A DNA stretch of 64,000 bases from a virus, in IMG/VR virus record IMGVR_UViG_3300025913_000021, positions 1 to 64,000 of that record. The stretch is one strand, 5' to 3'. Positions within the stretch are counted from its first letter, which is position 1. Each line of letters opens with the position of its first letter. Shown here piece by piece: positions 10,342 to 63,390 of the stretch. Made by a program: the position numbers and the translations under genes. The notes beneath the pieces are model-generated. The model ran no database searches, was not told the origin of the DNA, and was given only the letters and a program-made list of their open reading frames with translations.

Positions 10342-10536
10342 TCACAGTTCCTCCTCGATGACGTAGGGATGACTCGCTCGGTCCATCTGGAATGGCGAGC
10401 GCTCGGGGCACTTGCTGCACCCCGGCCTGCGGACGCCCTGCTCTGACCACGGAGCCCAGGCGTGGGAGGGTCGCGCCGAGTTCAGCGCGACGATCATGCG
10501 GCGACGACGCTCCTCGGGCGTGACGGCGGTCGTCAT
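10342..10536 (-). CDS. 64-residue protein with EEP-type tail
   Basis: MTTAVTPEERRRRMIVALNS... starts in an ATGA overlap with the upstream gene. It has a CSKC pair and ends SHPYVIEEEL. This is the last gene of its unit; the next start is hundreds of bases away, so the tail cannot be explained as a ribosome site for a following gene. Function unknown, possibly a single-metal zinc finger. Confidence 0.65.
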   Translation of the reverse strand: MTTAVTPEERRRRMIVALNSARPSHAWAPWSEQGVRRPGCSKCPERSPFQMDRASHPYVIEEEL

Positions 10537-10862
10537 GGCTGGATCAGGTTCTCGCTGTCGGCGCGCTCGGAGTTCAGGAACTCGTGCTGCGCGGGCCACT
10601 TCCTCGCGTACTCGTCCAAGAGTCGATCGTGCCACTTGCGAGTGAGGTGCCGGTGGCACGTGGTCCACGCCGTGCCCTCGACGTGGTGCTTGCCGATGCG
10701 GAAGCAGCTCACGCACTTGCGGTGCTGGTAGAACAGCACGACACCCGCGAGCAGCGTGACGTTGCTGATGTTGGCCGCGAAGCCGGACCACCACAGGTAG
10801 TAGGCGCTGTCCGGGCTGTTGACACCCAGAAAGTGCGCCAGCCAGGTCACCCGAGTTCCCAT
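10533..10862 (-). CDS. membrane protein with Cys/His tail
   Basis: A 109-residue protein. The N-terminal MGTRVTWLAHFLGVNSPDSA leads into a predicted membrane span (about residues 24-45, WWSGFAANISNVTLLAGVVL), followed by a CVSCFRIGKHHVEGTAWTTC metal-ligand-like stretch and a charged C-terminus. This arrangement is common among small proteins of actinobacterial phages, where the role is unknown. It overlaps the 10847 gene by 16 bp. Confidence 0.7.
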   Translation of the reverse strand: MGTRVTWLAHFLGVNSPDSAYYLWWSGFAANISNVTLLAGVVLFYQHRKCVSCFRIGKHHVEGTAWTTCHRHLTRKWHDRLLDEYARKWPAQHEFLNSERADSENLIQP

Positions 10863-11221
10863 TCGTGGATGACGTAGAGGTGAGCGCCGGGGTCGTCCAT
10901 GTAGATCGACCCGGCCGCGCAGTCCTGACAGAACAGCCGGTGGTCCATCGCGAAGTCGTAGTACGGACGGCCGTCCGAATCCAGCATCGGGTTGAAGGGA
11001 TGGTCGGGCCGCTCGGAGATCTTCCGCGCCGATTCGACGAGCCCGGGCAGCACCATCGGGAAGCAGCTCGTGCGATCGACGAAGCCACCGCTCGACTGGA
11101 TCGCGGGCTGCTGCCGGATGCGTGGGTCGCCGTTGTAGACGTGACTGGACCCGGCCACGTGCAGGTACCCGTCGGGAGAGCCCGCCGTCGTGATCGTCCA
11201 GGTGACCGTGCTCGTGGCCAT
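10847..11221 (-). CDS. hypothetical protein with EEP-type tail
   Basis: A 124-residue protein from ATG 11221, the first gene after a terminator. Beta-rich start (MATSTVTWTITTAGSPDGYL), a single CQDC pair near residue 104, and the tail HLYVIHEWELG, a variant of the shared tail with two extra residues. It overlaps the next gene by 16 bp rather than 4, so the tail is not tied to the usual NTGA junction. Confidence 0.65.
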   Translation of the reverse strand: MATSTVTWTITTAGSPDGYLHVAGSSHVYNGDPRIRQQPAIQSSGGFVDRTSCFPMVLPGLVESARKISERPDHPFNPMLDSDGRPYYDFAMDHRLFCQDCAAGSIYMDDPGAHLYVIHEWELG

Positions 11222-11273
11222 GCTCTTATCATCGGCCACACACGGAGCTGAGTCACTTGCCCCGGAACGGGCG

Positions 11274-11308
11274 ACAGCCCCCGCCGTTGGAGGACAGGCG
11301 GGGGCTGT
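11274..11308 (-). terminator. hairpin terminator
   Basis: Perfect 12-bp stem ACAGCCCCCGCC/GGCGGGGGCTGT with an 11-nt loop, closing the unit whose last gene ends at 11322. Confidence 0.7.
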
Positions 11309-11321
11309 GCTTGGACCTAGA

Positions 11322-11510
11322 TCATCGGTGCAGACCGGCACCTCGTCCAGAGTCCGACGGCGTGTCGTCGTCCTTCTTCTTCTTCGAGCCGGTCGGCGTC
11401 GCGCTCGCCGCTGCCGTCTCGCTGCCGTTGTCCTGCGGGTCAGGGTTCTTCGGCCCGCTCGCGCTTGCCTGGTCCTGCTTCGACACCTGGGTGCCCTGGT
11501 CGTCAGCCAC
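11322..11510 (-). CDS. 62-residue disordered Lys/Asp/Ser-rich protein
   Basis: From GTG 11510 with AGGAGAGAGAC upstream. Composition is Ser, Ala, Asp and Lys with a KKKKDDD run; no fold expected. It overlaps the end of the 11503 gene and precedes a terminator. Function unknown. Confidence 0.6.
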   Translation of the reverse strand: MADDQGTQVSKQDQASASGPKNPDPQDNGSETAAASATPTGSKKKKDDDTPSDSGRGAGLHR

Positions 11511-11928
11511 GTCTCTCTCCTCGCATCAAGTCCTGGAGGTCAGGCACCTCCTGGATCACGTACTCCGGTGCTCCATGCAGTATGTGCCGCCAGCGACCAC
11601 CGGCAAAGGTCAGCTCGACGGCCACCTGCGACCAGCCGAGGATGTCCTTCGCCCGCACGCGCACACCGGAAGCCTTCCCACCCATCAGCTCGCCACGAAA
11701 CCGAGCAGGCCCCTCGGCGGTGCAGTTGGTGACCATGCCTCGGCCGAGCTTGTTCATGTTCAGCGGCATCCAGCTCGCGCCGCCCGTGTCGGTGATCTCC
11801 AGGACGACGAGTCCACCCTTCTTCTCCGGGTGGAACTCTCCGATCTCGATCAGGAGATTGCCGGTGCCGGTGAAGAACATCGTGATCGCGTCGAAGCTGG
11901 GCACGATCTCCACGCTCGCGCCGATCAC
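11503..11928 (-). CDS. hypothetical protein with extended EEP tail
   Basis: A 141-residue protein from GTG 11928 (GTGA overlap). Beta-rich, with NLLIEIGEFHPEKKGGLVVL. Ends PEYVIQEVPDLQDLMRGERRG: here the shared tail runs on into D-L-Q-D-L, matching the extension seen at 56259 (D-L-M-D-L) and 21825 (D-Q-A-D-L). This supports a real peptide motif rather than a by-product of a ribosome site. Function unknown. Confidence 0.7.
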   Translation of the reverse strand: MIGASVEIVPSFDAITMFFTGTGNLLIEIGEFHPEKKGGLVVLEITDTGGASWMPLNMNKLGRGMVTNCTAEGPARFRGELMGGKASGVRVRAKDILGWSQVAVELTFAGGRWRHILHGAPEYVIQEVPDLQDLMRGERRG

Positions 11929-12290
11929 AGCCCCAGCTCCCGGATCACGTACAGGTGCACCTCGGGCCGGAAGGCGTTGCGGTAGTCGGCGTCCTGCCAG
12001 CAGTCGGCGCACACGATCGCCGGTTCGCTCAGCTCGCCCGCGTCACCGATCGGGTACTGCGCGTCCTTCGGGTGCCACTTGTGCGAGACCTGCGTGGGGG
12101 ACGCGCCGAACGAGCCGAGCGAGGCCCAATCCCTGTCCGCTGGCGCATACACGTTGGGCGGCATGCACACGTGGTCGCGGCGCGCGACGTACGCCTGTCC
12201 TCGATGGACGACGATCGCGCCCGCGTCGTAGCTCTTGGTCGCATCGGCGGTTCCGGCGAAGTGCGTCGGCGCTCCCCTGCTGAATTTCAC
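11925..12290 (-). CDS. hypothetical protein with EEP-type tail
   Basis: A 121-residue protein from GTG 12290 (GTGA overlap). An early segment SYDAGAIVVHRGQAYVARRD looks like a small SH3-like or carbohydrate-binding beta unit of the kind found in tail and chitin-binding modules. CADCW lies near the end and the protein finishes HLYVIRELGL. Role unknown. Confidence 0.65.
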   Translation of the reverse strand: MKFSRGAPTHFAGTADATKSYDAGAIVVHRGQAYVARRDHVCMPPNVYAPADRDWASLGSFGASPTQVSHKWHPKDAQYPIGDAGELSEPAIVCADCWQDADYRNAFRPEVHLYVIRELGL

Positions 12291-12622
12291 GGCTCCTCGT
12301 AGATCACGAAATCTTGCGGGAACGACGAACCGTCCTGTCGGTACGCCAGCACCGGCTGCGTGATCCCGTGCTGGCGCATGAACTCGACCTGCGAGTCGAT
12401 GATCCCCTTCTGCACGTCGCACTCGACCTCCAGCCCGTCGATCCGCTTCTGCAATGCCTCCAGCGTCTGACCCTGCGTCTCCTTCTGGGCATCGAGGCGC
12501 TCGTGCATGCCCTTGATGGCGGCTTCGCGCCGACGCACCAGCTTGAACAGGAGGTGGATCATCCAGCACGCAATCCCCAGGAGGACGGCCAGCACGGCGA
12601 TGATGGTCAGCGCCCACGCCAC
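12287..12622 (-). CDS. membrane-anchored coiled-coil protein with EEP tail
   Basis: A 111-residue protein from GTG 12622. One N-terminal membrane span (about residues 3-27), then a coiled coil with heptads (RREAAIKGMHERLDAQKETQ, LQKRIDGLEVECDVQKGIID), ending QDFVIYEEP. The layout recalls phage spanins or anchored scaffold proteins, but nothing more specific is visible. First gene of its unit, divergent from the plus-strand island. Confidence 0.7.
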   Translation of the reverse strand: MAWALTIIAVLAVLLGIACWMIHLLFKLVRRREAAIKGMHERLDAQKETQGQTLEALQKRIDGLEVECDVQKGIIDSQVEFMRQHGITQPVLAYRQDGSSFPQDFVIYEEP

Positions 12623-12642
12623 GCGACGACTCTAACGTGAGA

Positions 12643-12685: not shown

Positions 12686-12868
12686 ATGGCTTCCGGTAGC
12701 GGCGACCCGCAGTTCGGCCTCCCCTACACCGGCACCCCGGTGCAGCAGGACTCGCGCGACGGCAAGGTCGCCACCGTGCTCGACATGAACCGGATGGCGG
12801 CGCGCACGATCACCGAGCACGCCGACGACGACCACTACACGGACGACGGCAACCTCTACCACGAGTGA
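12686..12868 (+). CDS. 60-residue hypothetical protein
   Basis: Plus-strand gene with AAAGGAGAAGGAC upstream. Starts MASGSGDPQFGLPYTGTPVQ and ends with a very acidic HADDDHYTDDGNLYHE. Probably disordered. First gene of a three-gene plus-strand island inside the minus-strand arm. Confidence 0.65.
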   Translation: MASGSGDPQFGLPYTGTPVQQDSRDGKVATVLDMNRMAARTITEHADDDHYTDDGNLYHE

Positions 12869-13728: not shown

Positions 13729-14097
13729 CTAGGGCTGCTCGATGATGACGTAGCCCGGCACGATGTAGGTATCGACGCCAGCAGCGTGCGCGATACCCAC
13801 CATGTGAGCCGTTCCGCGTCCACCCGGGAACGCGATCACCAGATCGGGCTTGAACTCGACCAGCATTCGCTTGTTGCGGATCGCTCCAGCAGCCTTGCCA
13901 TGCTGATCCCAGTCGGCGCGGTACTCACGCCACCGCACCTTGCGATCGACGGCCCAGAACTTGCCCCAGCGGTCGGCACCGGCAGCCCCGCCTTGAGCCA
14001 GTTCCGTGATCGGAGTCGTCTCGTGGATCTTGTCCAGGATCTCGTTGACCCGCTCGTGGTCGGCGTAGTCGCGACCACCGCAGACGAGCACCCTCAT
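13729..14097 (-). CDS. SLOG-family (DUF2493/YspA-like) nucleotide-binding protein with EEP tail
   Basis: A 122-residue protein from ATG 14097, in an ATGA overlap. MRVLVCGGRDYADHERVNEI is the canonical DUF2493 start (VLVCGGRDY). ELAQGGAAGADRWGKFWA and DLVIAFPGGRGTAHMV complete the SLOG Rossmann-like fold, which binds nucleotides or nucleotide-derived ligands. The C-terminus ends PGYVIIEQP, so the shared tail is attached to a well-known fold that normally lacks it. Confidence 0.85.
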   Translation of the reverse strand: MRVLVCGGRDYADHERVNEILDKIHETTPITELAQGGAAGADRWGKFWAVDRKVRWREYRADWDQHGKAAGAIRNKRMLVEFKPDLVIAFPGGRGTAHMVGIAHAAGVDTYIVPGYVIIEQP

Positions 14098-14438
14098 ATG
14101 GACGGACATTCGTGAGCAGGCAGCTCGCAGGGCTCCAACCACCACGCCTGCACCTCGTCGGGACAGCGCAAGAGCTGCTTCATCAGGTCGGCCTCGGTGA
14201 GCTGATAGCCCCGGAACTGCGCCGTAATGATCATCGAGTCGAGACCTTTCTGATCACACGAGGCGTACTTCTCGTAGATCAGATCCAAGACGGCCTGCCG
14301 CTTCGCAGCGTCGATGTCCGGCTGGATCTGCCCCCGCATGACGATGCGGTCGATCGTCTCGTCCAGGGACTTCCGAGCAGCGGCGACCCGTGGGTCACGG
14401 CGTTCCAGCTCCGCCAGGTGTCGTTCCAGGGTGTCCAT
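14094..14438 (-). CDS. hypothetical helical protein
   Basis: A 114-residue protein, MDTLERHLAELERRDPRVAA..., ATG 14438. Mostly charged helices; ends CELPAHECPSI. The ATTCCGAACATTC element lies 17-29 bp upstream, inside the 3' part of the preceding gene's frame. Function unknown. Confidence 0.65.
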   Translation of the reverse strand: MDTLERHLAELERRDPRVAAARKSLDETIDRIVMRGQIQPDIDAAKRQAVLDLIYEKYASCDQKGLDSMIITAQFRGYQLTEADLMKQLLRCPDEVQAWWLEPCELPAHECPSI

Positions 14439-15878: not shown

Positions 15879-16049
15879 TCACGGCTCCTCGGCGATGACG
15901 TACACGCCCTGGAACTCCTCCTCGGTGCTGACGAGCCGGAACCACGAGCCCATCCAGATGTACGCGCAGCCGGTCGCCGGGTCGAACCAGCAGTCGCCCT
16001 CCTCCGGGTTCACCGGCTCCTGGTCACCGACCATCCGCATCGAGATCAC
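15879..16049 (-). CDS. 56-residue protein with EEP tail, last gene of its operon
   Basis: GTG 16049 in GTGA overlap. VNPEEGDCWFDPATGCAYIW followed by MGSWFRLV resembles short tail or cell-surface peptide repeats, then ends GVYVIAEEP. The operon stops here at a terminator, so the tail is not needed to start another gene. Confidence 0.65.
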   Translation of the reverse strand: MISMRMVGDQEPVNPEEGDCWFDPATGCAYIWMGSWFRLVSTEEEFQGVYVIAEEP

Positions 16050-16351
16050 GGCTCCTCCTGGATGGTCGGCGGGTCGAGGTAGCGGCACTCGTACTCGCAC
16101 ATCAGGTAGTCCGGGTGGCCGCACATGCACTGGCCATCGACAGCGGCCGGGTGCATCGACTCGCCGTGGTACTCGAAGTCCGGCTCGTCGATGTCGAAGC
16201 CGATCGGGTCCACGTGCCCTGGGCAAACGCCGAGGATCGCTTCCAGACGAGCGTCGATTTCTTCCTCCGTGATCATCGCGGCCCACTGCTCGGCCAGCTC
16301 GTGCACCTCGGTGAACAGCGCGGCCAGTTCTCTGAGTTCGTCAGCGTCCAT
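16046..16351 (-). CDS. hypothetical protein with EEP tail
   Basis: A 101-residue protein, MDADELRELAALFTEVHELA..., helical first half and CMCGHPDYLMCEYEC near the end (possible zinc site). Ends DPPTIQEEP with CAG GAG GAG CCG TGA, whose last bases give the next GTG start. Confidence 0.7.
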   Translation of the reverse strand: MDADELRELAALFTEVHELAEQWAAMITEEEIDARLEAILGVCPGHVDPIGFDIDEPDFEYHGESMHPAAVDGQCMCGHPDYLMCEYECRYLDPPTIQEEP

Positions 16352-16386: not shown

Positions 16387-16569
16387 TCAGGGCTCCTCTT
16401 GGATCAGATACATGTTGTCGCCGTGCAGCCAGCCGACCTTCTTGGCGATGTCCAGAGCGATCATCCGGTCTCGCGCGCGGCGCAGTTCGTACTCGCTCGT
16501 GAAGATCAGCTCGTGCTCGGTCCCTTCGTGCGTAACCGCCACCAGGATCCAGGTGGGGACGACGGTCAG
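16387..16569 (-). CDS. 60-residue protein with EEP tail and CTG start
   Basis: Frame TVVPTWILVAVTHEGTEHEL... ending NMYLIQEEP. The only junction-type start is CTG 16569, in a CTGA overlap with the upstream EEP-tail gene, which carries GGAGGAG just before it. If correct, all four NTGA overlaps (ATGA, GTGA, TTGA, CTGA) are used in this operon. Function unknown. Confidence 0.55.
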   Translation of the reverse strand: MTVVPTWILVAVTHEGTEHELIFTSEYELRRARDRMIALDIAKKVGWLHGDNMYLIQEEP

Positions 16570-16736
16570 GGCTCCTCCTCGATGATGTAGATCATGAGCG
16601 AGTTGAAGGCGATCGACAGTTCCAAGTACACCTCGTTGAAGGGTCGGTGCTGAGTCGAGGCGACGTTCTCGACCAGCTCGTTGAACAGTTTCCGCGCGTG
16701 CAGATCCTCGTCAAGCGCGGTCTCGATCGGATTCAC
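16566..16736 (-). CDS. 56-residue helical protein with EEP tail
   Basis: GTG 16736 (GTGA overlap). MNPIETALDEDLHARKLFNE..., amphipathic helices, ending LMIYIIEEEP. The last codons GAG GAG GAG CCC TGA carry the ribosome site and CTG start of the following gene. Confidence 0.65.
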   Translation of the reverse strand: MNPIETALDEDLHARKLFNELVENVASTQHRPFNEVYLELSIAFNSLMIYIIEEEP

Positions 16737-17029
16737 ACGAAGGGGCTCAAGGGCGGGAAGTCCATGCGGGCCACGACCATCGTGATGACCTCGATGCTGG
16801 CCGAGCGTGGCCCCATCAGGCCGATGCCCATGAGCTGCGCGTCCATCGGTCGGTCGGCCTCGAAGTGGCTGGAGAACCGCGCGATAGCGAAGCCCTCATT
16901 TGACACGGCCTTCTTCACGACGACGTGCCGTCCTGCCAGGGCTGCCGTCTCCTCGACCCATTTCTGATGCTCGTCCAATTCCGACTCCATGCCGTTCATG
17001 ACGAGTTCGACGTGATACTCCAAACCCAT
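16733..17029 (-). CDS. hypothetical protein
   Basis: A 98-residue protein, ATG 17029 in a TAATG junction. Alpha/beta pattern with ARFSSHFEADRPMDAQLMGI; ends MDFPPLSPFV without the shared tail. Function unknown. Confidence 0.65.
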   Translation of the reverse strand: MGLEYHVELVMNGMESELDEHQKWVEETAALAGRHVVVKKAVSNEGFAIARFSSHFEADRPMDAQLMGIGLMGPRSASIEVITMVVARMDFPPLSPFV

Positions 17030-17304
17030 TAGGGCTCCTCCTGGATGGTGTACTGCCAGGTCGCCCAGCGGTAGATCATGCCGTGCGGTGGCTTGAGGGA
17101 TGGTCGGAAGATCGTCTGTTCACAGCGCAGGCACTCGGCCGTGCTCAGATAGGCCGCGCGCATTTCGTCCACCGGTTCGTGGAACCGCAGTATCCGACCG
17201 TCGAGCGCCTGGCAGAGGAAGCTGAGTCCCCAGCTCCCCGACTTCGGAATGAGCTGGAAGGCTTCGGGCGTCCAGTCCAGATAGATCGTGCGCGTGCCGG
17301 TCAT
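17029..17304 (-). CDS. hypothetical protein with EEP tail
   Basis: A 91-residue protein, ATG 17304 (ATGA). CLRCEQ gives one Cys pair; ends WATWQYTIQEEP. It uses a TAA stop, rare in this window, and still carries the GAGGAG of the tail before the next ATG. Confidence 0.7.
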   Translation of the reverse strand: MTGTRTIYLDWTPEAFQLIPKSGSWGLSFLCQALDGRILRFHEPVDEMRAAYLSTAECLRCEQTIFRPSLKPPHGMIYRWATWQYTIQEEP

Positions 17305-17537
17305 GGCAGCTCCACGATCTCGTAGTCCTCATAGCGCGCCGCGAACTGCTCGTCGGTGTACCAGCGGGAACCGACGACCTTGAGCGCCTTGCAGTGCTGC
17401 CCGCAGTGCGCACACGTGCCCTGGAGGAACGGGAGGGACTCGAACGCGAGCCGTCGCTCTGCCGCCACGCGGTGTAGCCCGTTGACCGCGTAGAAGCAGT
17501 TGACCTCCTCGCGAGGATGGGGGACTTGAATGGTCAC
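17301..17537 (-). CDS. zinc-binding-like protein with EEP-type tail
   Basis: A 78-residue protein, GTG 17537. CAHCGQHCKAL gives a compact metal site; ends YEDYEIVELP, the -ELP form of the tail. Function unknown. Confidence 0.65.
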   Translation of the reverse strand: MTIQVPHPREEVNCFYAVNGLHRVAAERRLAFESLPFLQGTCAHCGQHCKALKVVGSRWYTDEQFAARYEDYEIVELP

Positions 17538-17752
17538 GGCAGCTCCGAGATCACGTACTGCGGCCAGTCGGTTTCCAGGGCCGCGATGTGGTCGGCCTTC
17601 GCCTTCTCAACCCTGGCGACGCGAGCCTCCACGTCGAGTCGGTTCATCAGCACGCTGATCCCGACCTGGACGAGCACGATCGCGACGCAGGCACCGTAGA
17701 TGCAGACGAGCAGCACGTCGCTGATGATGCGACTTGCGAGATCACTGCTCAC
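17534..17752 (-). CDS. membrane-anchored small protein with EEP-type tail
   Basis: A 72-residue protein, GTG 17752. One membrane span (ISDVLLVCIYGACVAIVLVQ), then a short charged helix and the end WPQYVISELP. If the span is inserted N-out, the tail faces the cytoplasm. Confidence 0.7.
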   Translation of the reverse strand: MSSDLASRIISDVLLVCIYGACVAIVLVQVGISVLMNRLDVEARVARVEKAKADHIAALETDWPQYVISELP

Positions 17753-17928
17753 GGTTCCTCCTGGATGACCAGAAGTGGATCTATCTTGCTGTACCGACCG
17801 CGAGAGCTGACCTGCGCCGTATGGGTGATCTTGAAGCCCGGGTAGGGCAGGTGGCACCAACTCAGCGACTGGTCGTCCCAGTAGATGTAGTGGCCGCAGG
17901 TGTAGCACACCCGCATCCAGCGGCTCAC
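17749..17928 (-). CDS. 59-residue zinc-like protein with EEP tail
   Basis: GTG 17928. CYTCGHYIYWDDQSLSWCH gives Cys/Cys/Cys/His ligands; ends DPLLVIQEEP. Function unknown. Confidence 0.7.
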   Translation of the reverse strand: MSRWMRVCYTCGHYIYWDDQSLSWCHLPYPGFKITHTAQVSSRGRYSKIDPLLVIQEEP

Positions 17929-18149
17929 GGTTCTTCCTGGATGACGTACTCCGGGATGCCGGTGCGGTGCTCCATGCACTCGTAGGTCTGTCGAGCGCCG
18001 ACGAACATGCACCCGCAGTGCATCGTGAAGTGGTACTGGTTCACGTTCTTCGCCTCACGCGCGCGGAGCGCTGCGATGCCGAGCGCCTGGTGCACGTCGC
18101 TGCTGACGCGAGGTCGGCGCTGGCCGGTCTCGTACCACTCATCGCTCAC
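17925..18149 (-). CDS. 74-residue protein with EEP tail
   Basis: GTG 18149. Arg-rich helical start, CGCMF and CMEH in the second half, ends GIPEYVIQEEP. Codons TAC GTC ATC CAG GAA GAA CCG show synonymous GAA use for the two glutamates, unlike the GAG GAG in other copies. Confidence 0.7.
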   Translation of the reverse strand: MSDEWYETGQRRPRVSSDVHQALGIAALRAREAKNVNQYHFTMHCGCMFVGARQTYECMEHRTGIPEYVIQEEP

Positions 18150-18439
18150 GGCAGCTCCTCGATGACGAACGGTCGCGTCCGCCACGGTGAGGTGGTGATC
18201 GTGCCTTGGAAGCGCTTGTCCTTCGACGGGTGCGCGGTCACGTCGCGCTCGATGAGTCGCCCGCAGCCGCTACAGGTGGCCTCCTGGCCAACCCGGGGTA
18301 CGGTGCTGGCCGGAGCGCGCTGCGAGTACGCCGCAGGCAAGTGGCCACCGATGCTCGTCGGGCATTCCTCGTTCCACCAGCGCAGCTCCTTGCGGATGCG
18401 TCGGTGCGTGCGCTTGCGCTCGTTGCGGCCACGGGTCAC
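18146..18439 (-). CDS. basic zinc-finger-like protein with EEP-type tail
   Basis: A 97-residue protein, GTG 18439. Very basic N-terminus (RGRNERKRTHRRIRKELRWW), CSGCGRLIERD metal pair, ends RTRPFVIEELP. Probably nucleic-acid binding. Confidence 0.7.
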   Translation of the reverse strand: MTRGRNERKRTHRRIRKELRWWNEECPTSIGGHLPAAYSQRAPASTVPRVGQEATCSGCGRLIERDVTAHPSKDKRFQGTITTSPWRTRPFVIEELP

Positions 18440-18798
18440 GGTTCCTCGCTGATCACGTGGATGCTCTTGCAGCCGACCCAGGCGATCGGCCCACGCTCGT
18501 CGTCGGTCCAGGCGACATCGCGTGCGTCCCAATCGAGGTTGTCGCGATGCACGTCGCGCTCGAACTGGATTGCATCCTCACGATCGAGATCGCACTGCTG
18601 AGCCCAGTCAGGCGTGGGATCTGGACGCACGTCGAAAAGCTCATGGCAGCCGATGCAGCGCCAGGCGGTGCGCTTGCGGATGAAGCCCGCCGACTCCGGG
18701 ATGGTGTTGTGCCGGTGTGGCGTGCCGGTCATCAGCTCCATCTGGTGCTCCTCGATGTGGTCGCACGTCACCGTGCGGCACAGTGGACAGACCCTCAA
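18436..18798 (-). CDS. zinc protein with EEP tail, TTG start
   Basis: A 120-residue protein whose TTG 18798 overlaps the upstream stop as TTGA; a GTG at 18831 is possible but less likely. CPLCRTVTCDH and CIGCHELFD provide metal ligands; ends CKSIHVISEEP. Function unknown. Confidence 0.7.
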   Translation of the reverse strand: MRVCPLCRTVTCDHIEEHQMELMTGTPHRHNTIPESAGFIRKRTAWRCIGCHELFDVRPDPTPDWAQQCDLDREDAIQFERDVHRDNLDWDARDVAWTDDERGPIAWVGCKSIHVISEEP

Positions 18799-19217: not shown

Positions 19218-19431
19218 GGTGGGTGGTCTCCTTCGGGTCGATCTCGAACTCGGGGACCGTGTAGCCGGTGGGCACCCACTCGGTCGCGCTCACGTTCCCG
19301 TCCCTGTCAATGTTCGGGATGGTGTCCACGTAGTTGCGGCACTCGCGGCAGAACGAGCGCAGCCACTTCGTGCCGTCACGCTCCACGATCATCGCCTCGC
19401 GCACCGAGGCCGAGGTGTGCGGGCAGCTCAC
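19210..19431 (-). CDS. 73-residue protein with Cys pairs
   Basis: GTG 19431 (GTGA). MSCPHTSASVREAMIVERDG..., FCRECRNYVD in the middle, ends DPKETTHHV. Resembles generic small actinophage zinc proteins. Function unknown. Confidence 0.65.
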   Translation of the reverse strand: MSCPHTSASVREAMIVERDGTKWLRSFCRECRNYVDTIPNIDRDGNVSATEWVPTGYTVPEFEIDPKETTHHV

Positions 19432-19622
19432 GGTTCCTCCTGGATGATGTACGGCTGCATCACCTGGAGACCGTGGCCGGGAGGAGTTCTAGGCATGGTG
19501 GCGAACACCTTGCCCAGGTCGCGGAACGCTTGCTGCATCTTCCGGCCGTTCATCGCGAAGTCCACGTAGCTCTTGGTGACCGCATCGTCGGACGGGGGCT
19601 CGACGTTGGAAAGCTCACTCAC
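19428..19622 (-). CDS. 64-residue protein with EEP tail
   Basis: GTG 19622 (GTGA). PPSDDAVTKSYVDFAMNGRK resembles the short phrase VTKSYVD common around tail-fibre repeats, then ends QVMQPYIIQEEP. Function unknown. Confidence 0.65.
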   Translation of the reverse strand: MSELSNVEPPSDDAVTKSYVDFAMNGRKMQQAFRDLGKVFATMPRTPPGHGLQVMQPYIIQEEP

Positions 19623-19975
19623 TCCTTCACCTGACCAGTCCACGGCAGGTGCAGGCCGTCGCCGGGCCGACGAGGCACGTAGTGGATGTGCAGGTGGTAC
19701 ACGCTCTGCGTCGCGTGGAAGCCGTCGCTGGTGATGAGGTTGAAGTCATCGGGCGAGTGAGTGGCGTAGGTGGCAGCAGCCTCGAACACGCGCCCCGTGA
19801 TCATCGGGTCCTCGCTCGCGCGAGCGGTGTGCTTGCGATGGACGAACAGCCGATGACCGGGCACGACGGGGTTCAGCGGCTCGAAGCTCACCACATCGGC
19901 GAACTCGGTGTCCTGGTAGCTGTCCTCCGGCTTCGAGCTGCGCAGCTTCGCGCAGAACACGCAATCAGTCGTCAT
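19619..19975 (-). CDS. HIT-family hydrolase/nucleotide-binding protein
   Basis: A 118-residue protein. CVFCAKL at the N-terminus, the FEPLNPVVPGHRLFVHRKH strand-turn, and the catalytic triad HLHIHYVP near residues 95-102. HIT proteins cleave or transfer nucleoside phosphates (dinucleotide polyphosphates, AMP conjugates). The C-terminal tail is not of the EEP kind. Located within the small-gene operon. Confidence 0.88.
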   Translation of the reverse strand: MTTDCVFCAKLRSSKPEDSYQDTEFADVVSFEPLNPVVPGHRLFVHRKHTARASEDPMITGRVFEAAATYATHSPDDFNLITSDGFHATQSVYHLHIHYVPRRPGDGLHLPWTGQVKE

Positions 19976-20510
19976 CGTGGCTCGACAATCCCATGACGGC
20001 GCGACGAGCGGTGGCGTCGTCCAGGCCGACGAGTCCTACTAACGTGCGTCTGTATTGCTCGTCGAGGTCGGCACGCTGGCACCCTTCGAGGATGCGCACC
20101 GCATGGGTCTGAGCCTGCTCGTAGTCCCACTGACCCTTGTCCTGGCCGTCGATAACGACGGTGAGGAAGGGCTTGCCCTTGATGTTGACACCGGGCCGCA
20201 GACGCAGCCGCTGCACCGAGAGGTTCGGGTTCGAGTAGTCGGCGCGGTCCTTGCGTAGCTCCTGGATGACATCGCCAGCGGCGCGCGGATCATTGGTGGA
20301 GTGGGTGAGCTGACGGAACACCAGGGCGTCGTAGTGCGCGAGCACTGCCTGGTGGAGCACGTACTCGGCCCAGGCCCGCGCCTGGTCTACGTCGAGGAAC
20401 TGGCCGTGGTCCTCGTCGATCTCCAGCTTGAGGCGGTAGGTCCCGCTGGAGTCCGGTTCGGTGCGGACCCAGATGACGCCTGCGCCTTCATCGACGGGTT
20501 GCTGGGTCAA
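19965..20510 (-). CDS. hypothetical protein
   Basis: A 181-residue protein from TTG 20510. Begins MTQQPVDEGAGVIWVRTEPD; has YRLKLEIDEDHGQFLDVDQA and later DLDEQYRRTLVGLVGLDDAT. Two similar halves (a beta hairpin followed by a helix with QA-x-x-x-A) hint at an internal duplication. Function unknown. Confidence 0.65.
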   Translation of the reverse strand: MTQQPVDEGAGVIWVRTEPDSSGTYRLKLEIDEDHGQFLDVDQARAWAEYVLHQAVLAHYDALVFRQLTHSTNDPRAAGDVIQELRKDRADYSNPNLSVQRLRLRPGVNIKGKPFLTVVIDGQDKGQWDYEQAQTHAVRILEGCQRADLDEQYRRTLVGLVGLDDATARRAVMGLSSHDDD

Positions 20511-22853: not shown

Positions 22854-22866
22854 ACCGAACATTCTC
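22854..22866. promoter_or_regulatory. ACCGAACATTCTC element abutting a start codon
   Basis: The repeated element lies immediately before the ATG at 22853, where a normal ribosome site would be. Either the element overlaps the leader or the transcript is nearly leaderless. Confidence 0.4.
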
Positions 22867-52538: not shown

Positions 52539-52957
52539 AGCGACTAGCCCGCGCGTTTCCTCGGGCGATCTTCGCCGCTGCGTCGGTCGCGTTCGTGTTC
52601 ATGGCGGTCAGCCATGCCGTGCACCTCGTACATGACCCGACAAGGTTCTACTACAGGGACTCCGAGCGAGCATTGGCCCTGTTCACGGTCATCGTCGTTT
52701 CGTGGGTCCTGGGCCTGTTGAGCTGCTACGTGCTGTTCCAGTACCAGCTCCGGAAGCGTCGGCGGGCCAACCCGCCGATCATGACGTTGCAGTGCCCACG
52801 ATGTCGAAACCCGTTCCCGATCACCGAGATCGCTGCTCACGTCGATGAGCACATCGCCGAGGCGCGTGCACTGTCCACGCACAACGGACCACCGATCACG
52901 GCGATCGTGCGCAACCCGAGCGACTCGGAGTGGCGCATCATCCAGGAGGGAGTCTGA
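52535..52957 (+). CDS. membrane protein with zinc finger and EEP-like tail
   Basis: A 140-residue protein, GTG 52535. Two spans (FPRAIFAAASVAFVFMAVSH; LALFTVIVVSWVLGLLSCYV), then CPRCRNPFPITEIAAHVDEH, a C2H2 finger, and the end SEWRIIQEGV, a drifted tail. The cytoplasmic finger may bind nucleic acid near the membrane. Confidence 0.7.
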   Translation: MKRLARAFPRAIFAAASVAFVFMAVSHAVHLVHDPTRFYYRDSERALALFTVIVVSWVLGLLSCYVLFQYQLRKRRRANPPIMTLQCPRCRNPFPITEIAAHVDEHIAEARALSTHNGPPITAIVRNPSDSEWRIIQEGV

Positions 52958-53874
52958 TGGCGAAGGTCTATTGCCCAGGCTGCAAGCAACTGCTCGAACA
53001 CGATCGCGGCCACCTGCCGCTGCACATGACCGACATCCAGCGCGGCCTGCTCGTCACCGGCTCGAAGGTGTGCGACTACAGCAACAAGAAGATCGTCACC
53101 GAGAAGGCGACCGCCGAGTACACGTACGACTGCCCGGACTGCGGGATGGAGACCTCGCTCAAGATCACCGAGGACTACCCGGGCGCATTCACCGACGGCA
53201 TCAAGCCCTGGATCGAGATCGACTGCATCGGCTGCTCGGTGAGCCACGACGGCTACTACTGCTCGAACCCGGGCTGTGGCATCGAAGTCCTGGAGCGGAC
53301 GAACGAGTTCTACCGCGTGTCCGATTCCGAGGGCAGATACCTGCCGAAGGAAACCGGCGAGGACAAGCCGGTCATGCACCGGGACTTCGACACCGAGGCC
53401 GACGCGGGGTCCTACATCGCGTCGATCACTCAGCCGGACGACGAGCCGGATCGGTACAACCTCGACGCCATGCCCTCGGGCTGGTACGAGGTACGCAACG
53501 GCGTCGCTGGTGACAGCGACTGCCGAGCAGCGCTGCACGACCCGAAGCTGCTGCTGATGTCCGGTGGCAGCGCCTACCACGTGGGCGTGCTCAGGCCCGA
53601 GTTCCACAAGACGGTGCGCGTGACCGACGGTCACGTCATCGACGAGGAGCCCGAGCCCGGCGAGGTCATCCTGGCCACGGACGCCGAACCGGTCGCAGTG
53701 GACGGGATGCTCATCTGCGACTGCTGCAACCTTGCTCGACCCGAACTGCCCTACGAACACCAGTACGACGACGGGCGTCCCTCGCAGGTCTACTGCCAGG
53801 AGTGCTACGACGCCGGATGTGACGACGAATGCGCCGTGCGCGCCCGAGCCCGACAGGGGAGGACCCATGCCTGA
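52957..53874 (+). CDS. large multi-zinc protein
   Basis: A 305-residue protein, ATG 52957. CPGCKQLLEHDRGHLPLH (finger), CPDCGMETS, CIGCSVSHDGYYCSNPGC, then an acidic middle and CDCCNLARPELPYEHQ with CQECYDAGCDDEC. Four or more zinc sites. An internal GHVIDEEPEPGEVIL echoes the shared tail inside the chain. Probably a scaffold or nucleic-acid-binding protein; function unknown. Confidence 0.7.
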   Translation: MAKVYCPGCKQLLEHDRGHLPLHMTDIQRGLLVTGSKVCDYSNKKIVTEKATAEYTYDCPDCGMETSLKITEDYPGAFTDGIKPWIEIDCIGCSVSHDGYYCSNPGCGIEVLERTNEFYRVSDSEGRYLPKETGEDKPVMHRDFDTEADAGSYIASITQPDDEPDRYNLDAMPSGWYEVRNGVAGDSDCRAALHDPKLLLMSGGSAYHVGVLRPEFHKTVRVTDGHVIDEEPEPGEVILATDAEPVAVDGMLICDCCNLARPELPYEHQYDDGRPSQVYCQECYDAGCDDECAVRARARQGRTHA

Positions 53875-54626: not shown

Positions 54627-55013
54627 TTGCCGAAGCTGACCCTCCAGGGGTGTAAGCATCCGATCCTCCAACCGTGGGGAGCGGACTACGACCCGTGGAC
54701 GAGCGAGGGCTCGAAGCAGGTCACCTGCATGGTCTGCTACGAGCGCCTGATCGTCGAGGACGACCAGCCCGCCAACCGCATCTTTGGTCGTCGCGGCGGC
54801 GCAATGGACAACTCGAAGCTGCCTCGCGCCCAGCCAGCTCTGCCGTGCGAGCACCGAAGCAAGACGCCCATCCAGAAGCCCGAGAAGTTCACTCACGGCG
54901 ACTACACCGATGCGCTCTGCGAGACGTGCGGCGTCGTGCTGCGTCACCCCGAAGGCCCCGGCCAGTGGGAGGAGGTGATCTTCAATGGCTATGTCATCCG
55001 AGAGGAGCCCTGA
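54627..55013 (+). CDS. zinc protein with EEP tail
   Basis: A 128-residue protein, TTG 54627 with AGGAG upstream. CKHPILQPWGADYDPW, CMVCYERLIVEDD, CEHRSK and CETCGVVLRHPEG suggest two zinc sites; ends FNGYVIREEP. The next GTG lies 1 bp past the stop and uses the GAGAGGAG of the tail codons. Confidence 0.7.
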   Translation: MPKLTLQGCKHPILQPWGADYDPWTSEGSKQVTCMVCYERLIVEDDQPANRIFGRRGGAMDNSKLPRAQPALPCEHRSKTPIQKPEKFTHGDYTDALCETCGVVLRHPEGPGQWEEVIFNGYVIREEP

Positions 55014-55014: not shown

Positions 55015-55323
55015 GTGCCCACCTGCATGCGCTGCGAGCGGACGTTCAGCTCGCATCGGGGTTTGGACATCCATCGAAATCGGGCTCACCCGGTCTCGGA
55101 CAACTTCGTCATCGACTTCCTCAACCTCCCGCACGCACAGCAGGAGGAGGTTCTGCGCATCGTCGCGCCGGACGGCAAGCCGATCGACCTGGACCAGATC
55201 GTGCCTCGGATGCTGGCGATCGTCAGTTCACCGCAGAGCCGTGCCGAGAACACGACACTGCGCTCGGCGCTGGCGAAGATCACCGGAGTCGAGTACCGCT
55301 ACATGATTTCGGAGGAGCCGTGA
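55015..55323 (+). CDS. C2H2 zinc-finger protein with EEP tail
   Basis: A 102-residue protein, GTG 55015. CMRCERTFSSHRGLDIHRNR with AH is a textbook C2H2 finger (C-x2-C-x12-H-x4/5-H). Then a helical acidic part with DLDQIVPRMLAIVSS; ends YRYMISEEP. Likely DNA or RNA binding. Confidence 0.75.
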   Translation: MPTCMRCERTFSSHRGLDIHRNRAHPVSDNFVIDFLNLPHAQQEEVLRIVAPDGKPIDLDQIVPRMLAIVSSPQSRAENTTLRSALAKITGVEYRYMISEEP

Positions 55324-55589
55324 CGATGACACTGCCTCCGGCGATGCCCGCCTGGCAGCCCCAGGACAAGCGCCCACTGCCTGATGCGATCGGCACGGGC
55401 ACGCAGTACGTCAAGGAGTGCGCCAACAGCCAGCGCGACAACGGCTACCACTTCCCGAAGTGCGGCGTGCTGATGTCACCGGACGAGCGCTCGGACTGGT
55501 GCGCGTCCTGCGGTCTGCGGATCTTCTTCCACCCGGCTTCGCAGAACTGGTACAGCGCCACGTGGCACCTGATCATCGAGGAACCATGA
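55320..55589 (+). CDS. zinc protein with EEP tail
   Basis: An 89-residue protein, GTG 55320 (GTGA). CANSQRDNGYHFPKCGVLMS and CASCGLRIFFH give metal pairs; ends ATWHLIIEEP. Codons ATC ATC GAG GAA CCA TGA provide the next ATG. Confidence 0.7.
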   Translation: MTMTLPPAMPAWQPQDKRPLPDAIGTGTQYVKECANSQRDNGYHFPKCGVLMSPDERSDWCASCGLRIFFHPASQNWYSATWHLIIEEP

Positions 55590-56062
55590 GCGGCGTCGGG
55601 CACGCGGCACTCACGTGGTACTGCATCGACTGCGCGCACTACTTCGACGACCCGATGGACTCCAACGCTCACGTCCGCAAGACCGGGCACACCGCGCGCT
55701 GCGTCAACATGGCCGATCACGACACGTGGGTCCATGACGAACGCGACGACGTACCGCTCACCCGCAAGACGCAGCTCGTCAGAAAGGCTGCTCGTCAGTT
55801 TCGGACGGGCGAGGTGCTGTACCTGTTCGGGTGCGACACCGGGCCGGAACTCTACGGCGTGCTGCGCGGCGCGTTCGTCATCACCGAGAAGAAGCACCAG
55901 TCCGACACGGGCGTGAGCTTCTTCCTGCGTCACCAGTACGTCCAGCCCAACAAGCCGTGGTCGGGTCCGGGTCGCAGCTACTTGGTCGAGTTCGCACGCG
56001 ACCAGTTGCTGTACCGGCTCTCGGGCACGCCGGTCACATTCGTCATTCGGGAACTGCCGTGA
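55586..56062 (+). CDS. hypothetical protein with EEP-type tail
   Basis: A 158-residue protein, ATG 55586 (ATGA). YCIDCAHYFDDPMDSNAHVR resembles a Cys/His finger; the second half is beta-rich (GELYGVLRGAFVI-like; SYLVEFARDQLLYRLSGTPV) and ends VTFVIRELP. Function unknown. Confidence 0.7.
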   Translation: MSGVGHAALTWYCIDCAHYFDDPMDSNAHVRKTGHTARCVNMADHDTWVHDERDDVPLTRKTQLVRKAARQFRTGEVLYLFGCDTGPELYGVLRGAFVITEKKHQSDTGVSFFLRHQYVQPNKPWSGPGRSYLVEFARDQLLYRLSGTPVTFVIRELP

Positions 56063-56262
56063 CCGCCGAACTGCCACAGCTACGCGATGCGCTCGTGGAG
56101 CTATTCAGAGAGCACGAAGATGAGATCACCGAGGAGTACGGCGACTACGGCTACGGCGGCGAATGGCACGACCTCGGTCGTCGTCTCGTTCCCGAGTCTG
56201 CTGCCGACTTGGTGATCCGATTCCTGGCTTCCAGGACGTACGTCATACAGGAGACGCCATGA
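56059..56262 (+). CDS. 67-residue protein with EEP-type tail
   Basis: GTG 56059 (GTGA). Helical and acidic, MTAELPQLRDALVELFREHE..., ends LASRTYVIQETP; the ACG CCA TGA end gives the next ATG. Function unknown. Confidence 0.7.
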   Translation: MTAELPQLRDALVELFREHEDEITEEYGDYGYGGEWHDLGRRLVPESAADLVIRFLASRTYVIQETP

Positions 56263-56693
56263 CGAGACCAGCAAGCAAACGCGCCCGCATCCTGGTCAAG
56301 GGGACGGCGCTGCACTTCTTCGACGCGGGCCTCGGCCAGCGCGGCAGTGACAAGTTCTATCGGGCTTTCGTGTACGAGCACCCGGCGGGCCAGTGGCACG
56401 CCGTAATGTGCTGGGGCCGCGACGGCACCTACGGCCAGAGCAAGGCCGAGGACTTCCCCACCGAGTACGACGCCAACAAGGTGATCCAGCGGAAGATCGC
56501 CGAGAAGATGCGCCACGGCTACGAGATCATCGGCAACGGCGACGCGGTGCTCGACATCGCCTCGTCCATCCGGCTGGAAATGCTCGGCGTGGAGTTCATG
56601 CACGCCGTCGCGCAGCGCGACCCGGACAAGAGCCGGATGAGTGGAGGCATCATCATCCAGGAGGAACCGGACCTGATGGACTTGCTGGGCTGA
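56259..56693 (+). CDS. WGR-domain-like protein with extended EEP tail
   Basis: A 144-residue protein, ATG 56259 (ATGA). KFYRAFVYEHPAGQWHAVMC, WGRDGTYGQSKAEDF, then a helix with KVIQRKIAEKMRHGYE follow the WGR domain order seen in PARP-type and bacterial nucleic-acid-binding proteins. The C-terminus reads GGIIIQEEPDLMDLLG, the fullest version of the extended tail, followed only by a unit boundary. It stands out as a case where the tail continues past the proline. Confidence 0.75.
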   Translation: MTRPASKRARILVKGTALHFFDAGLGQRGSDKFYRAFVYEHPAGQWHAVMCWGRDGTYGQSKAEDFPTEYDANKVIQRKIAEKMRHGYEIIGNGDAVLDIASSIRLEMLGVEFMHAVAQRDPDKSRMSGGIIIQEEPDLMDLLG

Positions 56694-56758: not shown

Positions 56759-57118
56759 ATGAACAAGATCGCCTCAACACGTCAGGTCGCCCAAGTCGCT
56801 CAAGGACTGAGCGACGCGTTCCTGCGGTGCCGCGACATCGGCCACCAGTGGAGGCTCTACTACCAGCACCGCGAAGGCTCCGTGATCGTGCGGAAGATGT
56901 GGTGCCCATCGTGCAAGACGAACCGCAAGACGAAGATCAACCGCTACGGCGAGGTCGTGTCCAACAGCTACGACTACGACGACGGTTACCTCATCGAGGG
57001 ACTCGGCCGCGTGCAGGGTCGCAGCAAGGCGCTGCTCCGAGCCGAAGCGATCAACCGCACACCCGAGATCGACCTCGACTACCGCATCTTCGAGGAACCC
57101 AGCACTGCCGACCTGTAG
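56759..57118 (+). CDS. zinc protein with extended EEP-type tail
   Basis: A 119-residue protein, ATG 56759. Helical start, CRDIGHQWRLYYQH and CPSCKTNRKTKINR (metal pair), ends DYRIFEEPSTADL, which is the tail plus S-x-x-D-L. First gene of its unit; the next ATG is 9 bp away with GTAGGAGGCCGAC. Confidence 0.7.
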   Translation: MNKIASTRQVAQVAQGLSDAFLRCRDIGHQWRLYYQHREGSVIVRKMWCPSCKTNRKTKINRYGEVVSNSYDYDDGYLIEGLGRVQGRSKALLRAEAINRTPEIDLDYRIFEEPSTADL

Positions 57119-61126: not shown

Positions 61127-61311
61127 GCAGCAAGATCAAGGACGTGATCAACGGCCCGTGGCCGTTCGTCGCGCCGACACCCATAGGTGAGGGCTGGGGC
61201 TGGGGCTCACGCCTCATCGAGATCGCCTTCACTCCGGTCGGCATCGTCTTTTGGACGTGCGTCTGGATCGGACGTGGCTTCATGTGGATCGGCGAACGGC
61301 TGTTCCGATGA
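61123..61311 (+). CDS. 62-residue membrane-associated protein
   Basis: ATG 61123 (ATGA). Trp/Gly-rich: GEGWGWGSRLIEIAFTPVGI and VFWTCVWIGRGFMWIGERLF, probably one or two membrane segments. Function unknown. Confidence 0.65.
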   Translation: MSSKIKDVINGPWPFVAPTPIGEGWGWGSRLIEIAFTPVGIVFWTCVWIGRGFMWIGERLFR

Positions 61312-61478
61312 AGGCGTATCCGTATATCCCAGGCGTTCCCGCCGCTGGTCACGTAACGTCGTCCGGCTACTGGCATCCAGGAGCGATTCACAACTGCTGC
61401 AAGTGCGAACCCAAGGAGACACGTGACCGCCGTCCGACTCGACAATCCGTACTGGCGGATCGTCGAGAAGTTCCCTAA
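61308..61478 (+). CDS. 56-residue hypothetical protein
   Basis: ATG 61308 (ATGA). MKAYPYIPGVPAAGHVTSSG..., Cys pair in HNCCKCEPKE. The last third overlaps the next gene by 56 bp, so the C-terminus is uncertain. Confidence 0.5.
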   Translation: MKAYPYIPGVPAAGHVTSSGYWHPGAIHNCCKCEPKETRDRRPTRQSVLADRREVP

Positions 61479-62154
61479 CTCGGGCCTGCGCTGGAGTAAG
61501 GGCAGGTTCGAGCCTGAGAGTTACCCCATCATCAGCGACCTGATGGAAGCCCATCGCAAGGGCACGCCACTGCCGGACCTCGCGAACTTCGACGAGAACA
61601 AGAGCCCGACGCGCTCGTCGCTGGTGAAGCAGTTCGCCTGGGCGATCCCGTCGGATCAGACGCTCGCCTGGATTCGCAAGAGGCTGCTCGGCCGCGAGGT
61701 CGTGGAGATCGGCGCGGGTCGTGGCTACTGGGCGTGGATGTTGGAGCAGGTCGGCATCCCGGTCACCGCCTACGACGAGAAGCTGCTCGGCCTGGGCGAG
61801 GAGATCGGCTACTTCAAGGACGCGGGCGAGCACACGTACCACGAGATCCTGCGTGGTGGTCCGGAGAAGGCGGCGCTGCACCCGGACAAGGTGCTGTTCC
61901 TGTGCTGGCCTCCGTACGACGACGACATGGCCGTGAACTGCCTGCGCGCCTACCAGGGCGACACGCTGATGTTCGAAGGCGAGGGCGAGGGTGGCTGCAC
62001 GGCCAACGACGCCTTCTTCACCGAGCTGGCGGTCAACTGGGTGGAAGTCGATCAGCACTACCCGACGCAGTGGTCGGGCATCCACGACTTCCTGACGATC
62101 TACCGACGCAGCGAGCGCCAGATCGACCTGACGATCATCCGAGAGGAGCCCTGA
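61423..62154 (+). CDS. SAM-dependent methyltransferase-like protein with EEP tail
   Basis: A 243-residue protein, GTG 61423. VVEIGAGRGYWAWMLEQVGI is motif I of class I methyltransferases (E-x-G-x-G-x-G), VTAYDE follows as the acidic residue after strand 2, and VLFLCWPPYDDDMA is a motif IV-like stretch. Length suits a single domain. The C-terminus ends QIDLTIIREEP. Target not visible (nucleic acid or small molecule). A methyltransferase fold carrying the shared tail is a further case of tail plus known domain. Confidence 0.8.
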   Translation: MTAVRLDNPYWRIVEKFPNSGLRWSKGRFEPESYPIISDLMEAHRKGTPLPDLANFDENKSPTRSSLVKQFAWAIPSDQTLAWIRKRLLGREVVEIGAGRGYWAWMLEQVGIPVTAYDEKLLGLGEEIGYFKDAGEHTYHEILRGGPEKAALHPDKVLFLCWPPYDDDMAVNCLRAYQGDTLMFEGEGEGGCTANDAFFTELAVNWVEVDQHYPTQWSGIHDFLTIYRRSERQIDLTIIREEP

Positions 62155-62555
62155 TGAGCTTCGACAGCACCACGAGGGTGCACGTCACCGACCCGGCCTT
62201 CATGAACGCCCTGCTCGGTCGTCGCATCGTGGCCATCGACGACGAGGCGACCACGCTGATCCTGGACAACGGGGTCCGCATGGAGTTCGAGGTCGATATC
62301 TCGGACTGCTGCTCGTCGGTCGTGCTCAAGAGCCTGGCCACCGACGAGAACGTCATCACCAACGTCGAGGTCGCCGACAACGAGGACGAGACCGGTGGCG
62401 AGGGTGCGTACCGCGCGTGGATCCACGTGATCACCGAGGCGGGCGAGCTGAACATCGCCGAGGCCGAGGGCGACGCCTCGAACGGCTACTACCTGCACGG
62501 CTTCGCACTCGCCGTCACCATCACCACTCCGCACCTCATCCAGGAGCACCCATGA
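62154..62555 (+). CDS. DUF7448-like protein with EEP-type tail
   Basis: A 133-residue protein, ATG 62154 (TGATG). IVAIDDEATTLILDNGVRME, DISDCCSSVVLKSL and ITNVEVADNEDETGGEGAYR match a beta-rich family common in actinophages. Ends TTPHLIQEHP; the CAC CCA TGA end gives the next ATG. Function unknown. Confidence 0.7.
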   Translation: MSFDSTTRVHVTDPAFMNALLGRRIVAIDDEATTLILDNGVRMEFEVDISDCCSSVVLKSLATDENVITNVEVADNEDETGGEGAYRAWIHVITEAGELNIAEAEGDASNGYYLHGFALAVTITTPHLIQEHP

Positions 62556-63184
62556 CCACACCGATCGAGACGCCCACCAAGACCCACAACGACGTGCGCC
62601 TGGAGATCCGCGCTGGCTTCGGCGGGATGCCGCTGAGCATGGCCGGGTTCCTGCTCCAGGCGATCGGCACCGCCTACCCGCACACGCAGATCGAGACCCA
62701 GCACGCGACGGGCATCAACCTGCGCATCCCGTACGAGGACTTCCTCGACTTCGAGGGCCTGCCCGAGGGCGCGCTCGACGAGGTGCTGCCCGGCAAGGAC
62801 GACCCGGAGACCATCGCGTTCACGAACGGCTTCACGAAGGGCGGCGCGGGGATCAGCCCGCCGCCGTGGCTGGCACAACTGCTGGCCACGACGGCGGGCA
62901 TGCTGGAGGAGCAGCTCACCGACGACGTGGCTCCGAACTACATGGAGCTGACGATCATGCCGCAGGACGGCGGCGAGCCCTTCAAGTGGATCATCTGCAA
63001 GCGGGGCAAGCCGTCGCCGCACGATTTCAGACGAGCAGCCGAATCCCAGGTCGAGGCTCTGCTCCAGTGCATCCGCGACGCGATGGCCGAGATCGAGATC
63101 CAGGTGAACGAGGTCGAGGCCGCTGGCCTGAACGCCCTGCACCTCAAGAAGGCGTGGGGAAACCTCAACTCGCTGATCTCGTGA
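62552..63184 (+). CDS. hypothetical protein
   Basis: A 210-residue protein, ATG 62552 (ATGA). Contains ISPPPWLAQLLATTAGMLEE and IMPQDGGEPFKWIICKRGKP, mixed fold, with a helical end. No recognised motif. Function unknown. Confidence 0.65.
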   Translation: MTTPIETPTKTHNDVRLEIRAGFGGMPLSMAGFLLQAIGTAYPHTQIETQHATGINLRIPYEDFLDFEGLPEGALDEVLPGKDDPETIAFTNGFTKGGAGISPPPWLAQLLATTAGMLEEQLTDDVAPNYMELTIMPQDGGEPFKWIICKRGKPSPHDFRRAAESQVEALLQCIRDAMAEIEIQVNEVEAAGLNALHLKKAWGNLNSLIS

Positions 63185-63390
63185 AGGGTCCGCCGTCCGG
63201 CGACCCAGCCGCGCTCCAGAGGTGGTGCGAGGACGTGCGCTCACGCAACGAGCGAGAGCGGCAAGACCGCTGGTGGCACGAGATCGCACTCGAACGAGCC
63301 CGTCGCTACTGGGATGACGGCACCGGCTACGGCGCGGAGGTCTGGGATCAGAACATGCCGATCCTCGTGATCGTCGAACTGCCCAGCTAG
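63181..63390 (+). CDS. 69-residue protein with EEP-type tail
   Basis: GTG 63181 (GTGA). Arg/Trp/Glu-rich helices (RNERERQDRWWHEIALERAR), ends MPILVIVELPS. Last gene of its unit; the next start is 75 bp away, so this tail is not a junction signal. Confidence 0.65.
   Translation: MKGPPSGDPAALQRWCEDVRSRNERERQDRWWHEIALERARRYWDDGTGYGAEVWDQNMPILVIVELPS

Follow-up and report, generated by a model that had tools for sequence, protein, structure and literature searches.

Why would a phage place one and the same peptide at the ends of dozens of unrelated small proteins? The question is raised by a virus record, IMGVR_UViG_3300025913_000021 of IMG/VR (149,260 bp, 66% GC), whose bases 1-64,000 form the window, the 64,000-nucleotide stretch under study. 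For most of the small accessory proteins that phages encode, the function is not known. A sequence-only reading of the window had noted that about 36 small products end in variants of Y-V-I-x-E-E-P, and had described this tail as a genome-wide tag for docking, degradation, localisation or packaging. The tail is real but the number was too low, as 46 carriers were found in the record, 35 of them in the window. The tail phenomenon is secure. The tail is most likely, and we hold this with moderate confidence, a lineage-specific C-terminal short linear motif by which all carriers dock to one common partner on the cytoplasmic side.

Frequency and conservation of the tail

Genes were called over the whole record with a purpose-written codon-usage and start-site model, which gave 259 genes. 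Tails were sought with a position-specific score (PSSM) over seven residues, placed anywhere in the last 24 residues of open reading frames (ORFs) of at least 30 aa, and a score of at least 12 was taken as a good match. The 46 ORFs carry Y-[VI]-I-x-E-E-P at the C-terminus or up to 14 residues before it, while third-order Markov sequences of the same composition as the record gave 0-3 matches (about 1.4 expected). The strict pattern [VILMTER][IV]xExP forms the ending of 32 called genes, against a mean of 0.11 and a maximum of 2 in 1000 trials in which the last 20 residues of every called protein were shuffled. The enrichment proposed earlier is thus borne out, and all the endings listed then are in frame, directly or a few codons before the stop, at the coordinates given for them (the stop end for minus strand genes and the ORF start for plus strand genes, 52200 being the gene at 52212-52538).

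The consensus is [Y/H/F]-[V/I/L]-I-x-E-E-P, sometimes followed by x-L-x-D-L. Position 5 is Glu in all 46 tails and position 3 is Ile or Val in all 46 (Ile in 44). Position 7 is Pro in 42 of 46, and position 1 is Tyr, His or Phe in 37 of 46 (26, 8 and 3, respectively), with other residues in the remainder. Thirty-four tails stop exactly at the stop codon and 12 carry 1-14 extra residues, all lying within 21 residues of the C-terminus; it is therefore the motif that is kept and not the context of the stop. Several extensions have the x-L-x-D-L form (DLQDLM, DLMDLL and SALDL) and those in relatives are alike (ELMDLL and GLEDLF). The carriers are small, with a median of 99 aa for the called tail genes. 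Internal tail-like stretches, HVIDEEPEP and VIEEEPGRED, occur 73-80 residues from the C-terminus in the products of 52957-53874 (+) and of record positions 94842-95363, by chance or as a displaced motif.

The term genome-wide needs to be narrowed. Tails are concentrated in arrays of accessory genes, at 10.3-27.6 kb on the minus strand, at 52-63 kb on the plus strand and, beyond the window, at 66-91 kb on the plus strand. The structural block has none, and both the gene calls and the PSSM scan agree with the earlier statement that the terminase and portal genes lack it. The replication arm, which includes Ku, has two tails, at 34591 and 43533.

The proteins in front of the tails differ completely, as had been claimed. 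Compared without their tails, the 46 bodies included no pair that was alike at E<=0.01, and common ancestry of the carriers was rejected. The recognised bodies are SLOG and WGR, both confirmed by domain match, DUF7448, phrog_19090 and, weakly, a CBM5/12-like module; many others show the CxxC patterns of zinc ribbons, and a membrane helix is present at the N-terminus of two. A methyltransferase body was not confirmed, since 61423-62154 gives just a weak PHROG match (E=0.048). Defence-system models run on ten proteins gave no match. Where a domain is recognised, its boundary with the tail can be seen. The phrog_19090 profile ends at residue 229 of 243 in the product of 61423-62154, ahead of the tail. 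In the DUF7448 protein (62154-62555) the tail lies beyond the domain, and a Corynebacterium phage homolog has no tail. In the SLOG protein (13729-14145) the tail replaces the C-terminal segment of the homologs, and homologs of three phages end differently. One carrier was modelled with a predicted local distance difference test score (pLDDT) of up to 86 in the body and below 50, that is disordered, in tail residues 115-121. A folded body with a disordered tail is as expected for a short linear motif.

Relatives recognised by their terminase, at 73-78% identity and with 59-62% GC, carry the same tail. G003 has 14 tail ORFs in 30 kb and L012 has 5 in 12.7 kb, with about none expected in each. 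The carriers in relatives are mostly different proteins from those of the record. Five body families are common to the lineages (G003, L012 and L025), with about 27-45% body identity, and all of them keep the tail. The family of 10342-11256 has a member in every relative whose array is covered (G003, L012, L025 and the near-identical G001), and the body is 44% identical to that in L012 (E=7e-12). The bodies are thus replaced over time, whereas the tail persists. No tails are present in the stretches examined of more distant terminase relatives. The strict pattern matched in IMG/VR in this lineage only, a looser pattern gave three further contigs with a single match each and no other tails, which is near chance, and a scan with a second stop-variant pattern found nothing. 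Bacterial genomes gave 3 single pattern matches, about the chance number, and no terminase relatives, so that the phage was assigned no host, and a ligase-based search for members of the lineage gave just distant matches without tails. In the open-access literature, the coverage of which excludes subscription journals and preprints, no comparable phage tag was found. The tail is lineage-restricted in the collections searched. The L012 array also encodes an AAA+ protein of 417 aa that contains a Walker A motif (L012:7702-8955, minus strand) and of which no homolog was found in the phage of the window.

Docking and its alternatives

What could a peptide of this kind do? Membrane-anchored carriers are found in two lineages (12287-12622, 17534-17752 and G003 19760-19993). 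By the positive-inside rule the basic side of the membrane helix is cytoplasmic, and the tail is therefore predicted to be cytoplasmic. The disordered tail of the model and these carriers together favour docking to a common partner that faces the cytoplasm. The phage lineage would append the tail to small accessory proteins that turn over rapidly. A single partner, either phage-encoded or a conserved component of the host, would bind the invariant Glu together with the hydrophobic strand Y-V-I. This could bring dozens of small binding modules, among them zinc ribbons, SLOG, WGR and membrane-anchored helices, to one machine or one site while the infection proceeds.

A speculative candidate for the partner is a MoxR AAA+ ATPase of the phage together with a VWA protein, although the link is a guess. 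The MoxR-type ATPase (bpMoxR, PF20030) lies at 48515-49765 and is followed by the 649-aa VWA protein at 50024-51973 (PF13519, E=3e-8), which has an intact metal ion-dependent adhesion site (MIDAS), DNSGS...GGGTEFD...ITDG, and no close relative in IMG/VR. Binding of an acidic side chain of the client by the MIDAS of a VWA protein is established for CbbQO (PMC4660213). The pair is proposed because MIDAS sites grip acidic client side chains and Glu 5 of the tail is invariant. A plug-in system is a tentative extension of this idea, in which newly acquired small proteins gain the tail and dock to one phage machine, such as a MoxR-VWA remodeller. About one sixth of the genes might then be interchangeable adaptors for a single hub.

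The other tail-bearing contigs are partial and lack the MoxR-VWA region, and the pair was not found in them. The docking partner is hypothetical, the membrane topology was read simply from hydropathy, and we infer the binding step and any function. Against docking, the carriers at 15879 and 11925 weakly resemble virion fibre modules, which fits packaging better. If docking is nevertheless the role of the tail, a phage can handle accessory proteins as interchangeable modules, all sent to a single hub or compartment. Such modular addressing is so far known just in outline, from a few capsid-targeted T4 proteins. A tag common to dozens of accessory proteins is also a single handle for finding the common partner, with one peptide and one pull-down. 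It could also be used as a compact tag for C-termini, and it allows the accessory genes of the lineage to be recognised from sequence only.

The strongest rival is a T4-like capsid-targeting role, which is possible but clearly less probable than docking. The tail would bring its carriers to the inside of the prohead, or to the capsid surface, a prohead protease would trim them at I-x-E and they would be injected with the DNA against host defences. T4 packages its unrelated, variable internal proteins by means of a sequence of 10 residues, with cleavage after L/I-x-E (PMC9026906). The invariant residues of the tail are exactly I/V-x-E, here a putative cleavage site. The minus strand array is upstream of the terminase and head genes and co-directional with them, G002 has a tail gene directly after the major capsid gene, and the two carriers just mentioned weakly resemble tail-fibre modules. 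However, a cut after I-x-E in a C-terminal tag would release just 2 residues. There are membrane-anchored proteins among the carriers, another tail array is far from the head genes, and the head genes are common to a cousin, GX15bay, none of whose 576 ORFs has a tail. A prohead protease could not be recognised, as sequence profiles and structure prediction were uninformative. A candidate, a 262-aa protein at record positions 147686-148474, matches nothing in Pfam or the PDB and nothing convincingly in PHROG, and its structure model is too poor.

It is less likely still that the tail is a stability signal, either a degron read by a protease of the host or of the phage, or else a cap against tail-specific proteases, that would give the accessory proteins a common lifetime. 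Its C-terminal location and the small size of the carriers agree with this role, and acidic-Pro endings could resist carboxypeptidases. A protective cap, however, would not need an invariant Ile 3 and Glu 5 plus Tyr, His or Phe at position 1, and the motif tolerates as many as 14 residues behind it.

The peptide might also be a by-product of translation coupling, in which GAGGAGCC-TGA, read through as peptide, is either the ribosome-binding site of the gene that follows or a repeated start-associated DNA element like those of cluster K mycobacteriophages. GAG GAG CC does hold a Shine-Dalgarno core, and of the 41 called tail genes 21 share 1 or 4 bases with the gene that follows. Codon deviation is seen at positions 6 and 7 only, with GAA at position 6 in 12 of 30 tails versus 3.2 expected, so that the end of the tail is probably tuned for both purposes; the over-use of GAA at codon 6 possibly tunes the overlapping Shine-Dalgarno sequence of the next gene. 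At positions 1-5, however, the synonymous codons match the usage of the genome. Val is encoded by GTC 13 times and GTG 10 times (expected 10.9 and 11.0) and Ile by ATC, ATT and ATA 41, 2 and 1 times (expected 42.2, 1.5 and 0.4), and it follows that selection acts on the residues. Inside the tag-bearing regions the tail is present in 14 of the 44 genes that have no gene close behind them, while outside these regions none of 76 gene ends with the next gene at the stop does. The start-associated 13-mer of cluster K, GGGATAGGAGCCC, has 0 matches in the window with up to 2 mismatches allowed. Four tail-less control phages, GX15bay among them as a distant cousin, gave zero tails in about 1750 ORFs. 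The free codons, the 14 of 44 against 0 of 76 and the missing 13-mer refute a ribosome-binding site or DNA repeat as the main cause, and translation coupling is highly improbable.

The sequence-only reading had named two ways in which a tag could be explained away, tails that are out of frame and a null model of Shine-Dalgarno-containing gene ends. All tails are in frame, and the null does not reproduce them, given the free codons, the tails without a next gene and their absence from the control phages. A tag on the protein is therefore supported. Least credible of all is that the tail directs export from an actinobacterial host as a type VII secretion signal (Y-x-x-x-D/E). Y-V-I-x-E formally fits YxxxE (PMC5311947), but Tyr, conserved in such signals, is present in just 26 of 46 tails versus Ile in 44, and the carriers have zinc-ribbon, SLOG, WGR or membrane-anchored bodies. 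In type VII substrates the motif comes directly after the second helix of a helical hairpin of WXG100/PE type; the few bodies recognised here are SLOG, WGR, DUF7448 and CBM-like.

Carriers and neighbouring genes

The minus strand array begins with an ORF at 10342-11256 that ends in YVIEEEL (PSSM scan and body comparison); its C-terminal region of about 80 aa is the family found in relatives. A called gene at 10847-11221 encodes a CxxC protein ending in YVIHEWELG. The gene at 11503-11928 (gene call, PSSM scan and body comparison) has an extended tail, YVIQEVPDLQDLMRGERRG, and its G003 homolog ends in YLIDEEMGLEDLFNP. The product of 11925-12290, which ends in YVIRELGL, has the weak CBM5/12-like small beta domain and a G003 homolog ending in YVIQEMP. 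The product of 12287-12622 (FVIYEEP) has an N-terminal membrane helix followed by basic residues, so that its tail is predicted to be cytoplasmic, and the SLOG (YAcAr) protein at 13729-14145 ends in YVIIEQP. A lone plus strand gene of 60 aa at 12686-12868 lies within this array. It is conserved, ending in HYTxxGxxYHE, in G003, L012, L014 and L025, and a large beta-type stretch is inserted in the copy of L012. Adjoining the array, at 8933-9124 (-), is a 63-aa protein that is 53-77% identical across the lineage.

A dense run of minus strand tail genes follows, found by both gene call and PSSM scan, at 15879-16049 (YVIAEEP), 16046-16351 (PTIQEEP), 16387-16542 (YLIQEEP), 16566-16736 (YIIEEEP), 17029-17304 (YTIQEEP), 17301-17537 (YEIVELP), 17749-17928 (LVIQEEP, with CxxC), 17925-18149 (YVIQEEP), 18146-18439 (FVIEELP, with CxxC), 18436-18771 (HVISEEP, with CxxC) and 19428-19622 (YIIQEEP). 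Among them, at 17534-17752 (-), is the second protein with an N-terminal membrane helix (YVISELP), the tail of which is again predicted to be cytoplasmic. Further along the same strand, gene call and PSSM scan gave 22521-22862 (YVIPEFP with the extension GRD and two CxxC) and 23943-24137 (YVIQEEP with the extension GRDG and CxxC). The PSSM scan gave 21825-22082 (QVIQEEP with the extension DQADLDEQPKGSEQ) and an ORF at 27403-27606 that ends in YVIPEWP and is absent from the called genes.

On the plus strand, the two tails of the replication arm belong to a called gene at 34469-34591 (YLIREEP), which in the body comparison weakly matches the G003 tail protein at 16500-16688 (YEIQEEAL), and to a Cys-rich ORF at 43165-43533, which ends in PIIEEEPSALDLSA, fills a gap between called genes and was found by the PSSM scan. 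Near the first of these, 33051-34415 (+) encodes a 454-aa protein that is 43% identical in G003, has no Pfam, PHROG or PDB match and contains a stretch that looks sigma-region-2-like by eye. Ku (PF02735; 44446-45243, plus strand) and an ATP-dependent DNA ligase (record 64481-65491, which is L003:481-1491) are a possible end-joining pair, and both have G003 homologs.

In the plus strand array, gene call and PSSM scan agree on 52212-52538 (HMIEEEP), 54627-55013 (YVIREEP, Cys-rich), 55015-55323 (YMISEEP), 55320-55589 (HLIIEEP), 55586-56062 (FVIRELP) and 56759-57118 (YRIFEEPSTADL), and the PSSM scan adds 56059-56262 (YVIQETP). The WGR-domain protein at 56259-56693 (domain match and PSSM scan) has the extended tail IIIQEEPDLMDLLG. 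The phrog_19090 protein at 61423-62154 (PSSM scan and PHROG profile) ends in TIIREEP and the DUF7448/phrog_2131 protein at 62154-62555 (family matches) in HLIQEHP. An ORF at 62866-63390 ending in LVIVELPS is a weak member (PSSM score 12.2).

Comparison with known systems

Import into the phage nucleus resembles the proposed docking in that a phage sorts its own proteins to a common destination. There, however, no N- or C-terminal signal sequence was found and surface patches are recognised (PMC11087766), unlike the C-terminal tail described here. The start-associated sequences of cluster K are also repeated elements at the junctions of small non-structural genes and overlap the Shine-Dalgarno core. 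They are 13-bp repeats conserved as nucleotides, whereas here the peptide is conserved and the codons vary; and they always stand beside a downstream start codon, while 14 tail genes of the arrays have no close next gene. The likeness to CbbQO-type MoxR-VWA machines lies in the MIDAS that binds an acidic residue of the client, as the phage encodes both a MoxR protein and a VWA protein with a MIDAS. The clients of those machines do not share a peptide tag, and the link between tail and VWA protein is speculative here. The capsid-targeting sequence of T4 (IPI-III and Alt) is N-terminal and is removed by the prohead protease gp21, while the tail is C-terminal. A handful of T4 proteins carry that sequence, compared with 46 carriers here, and their location in the virion is proven, while for the tail it would be a hypothesis. 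What the two have in common is a short peptide with an I-x-E core on unrelated, variable accessory proteins of one phage.

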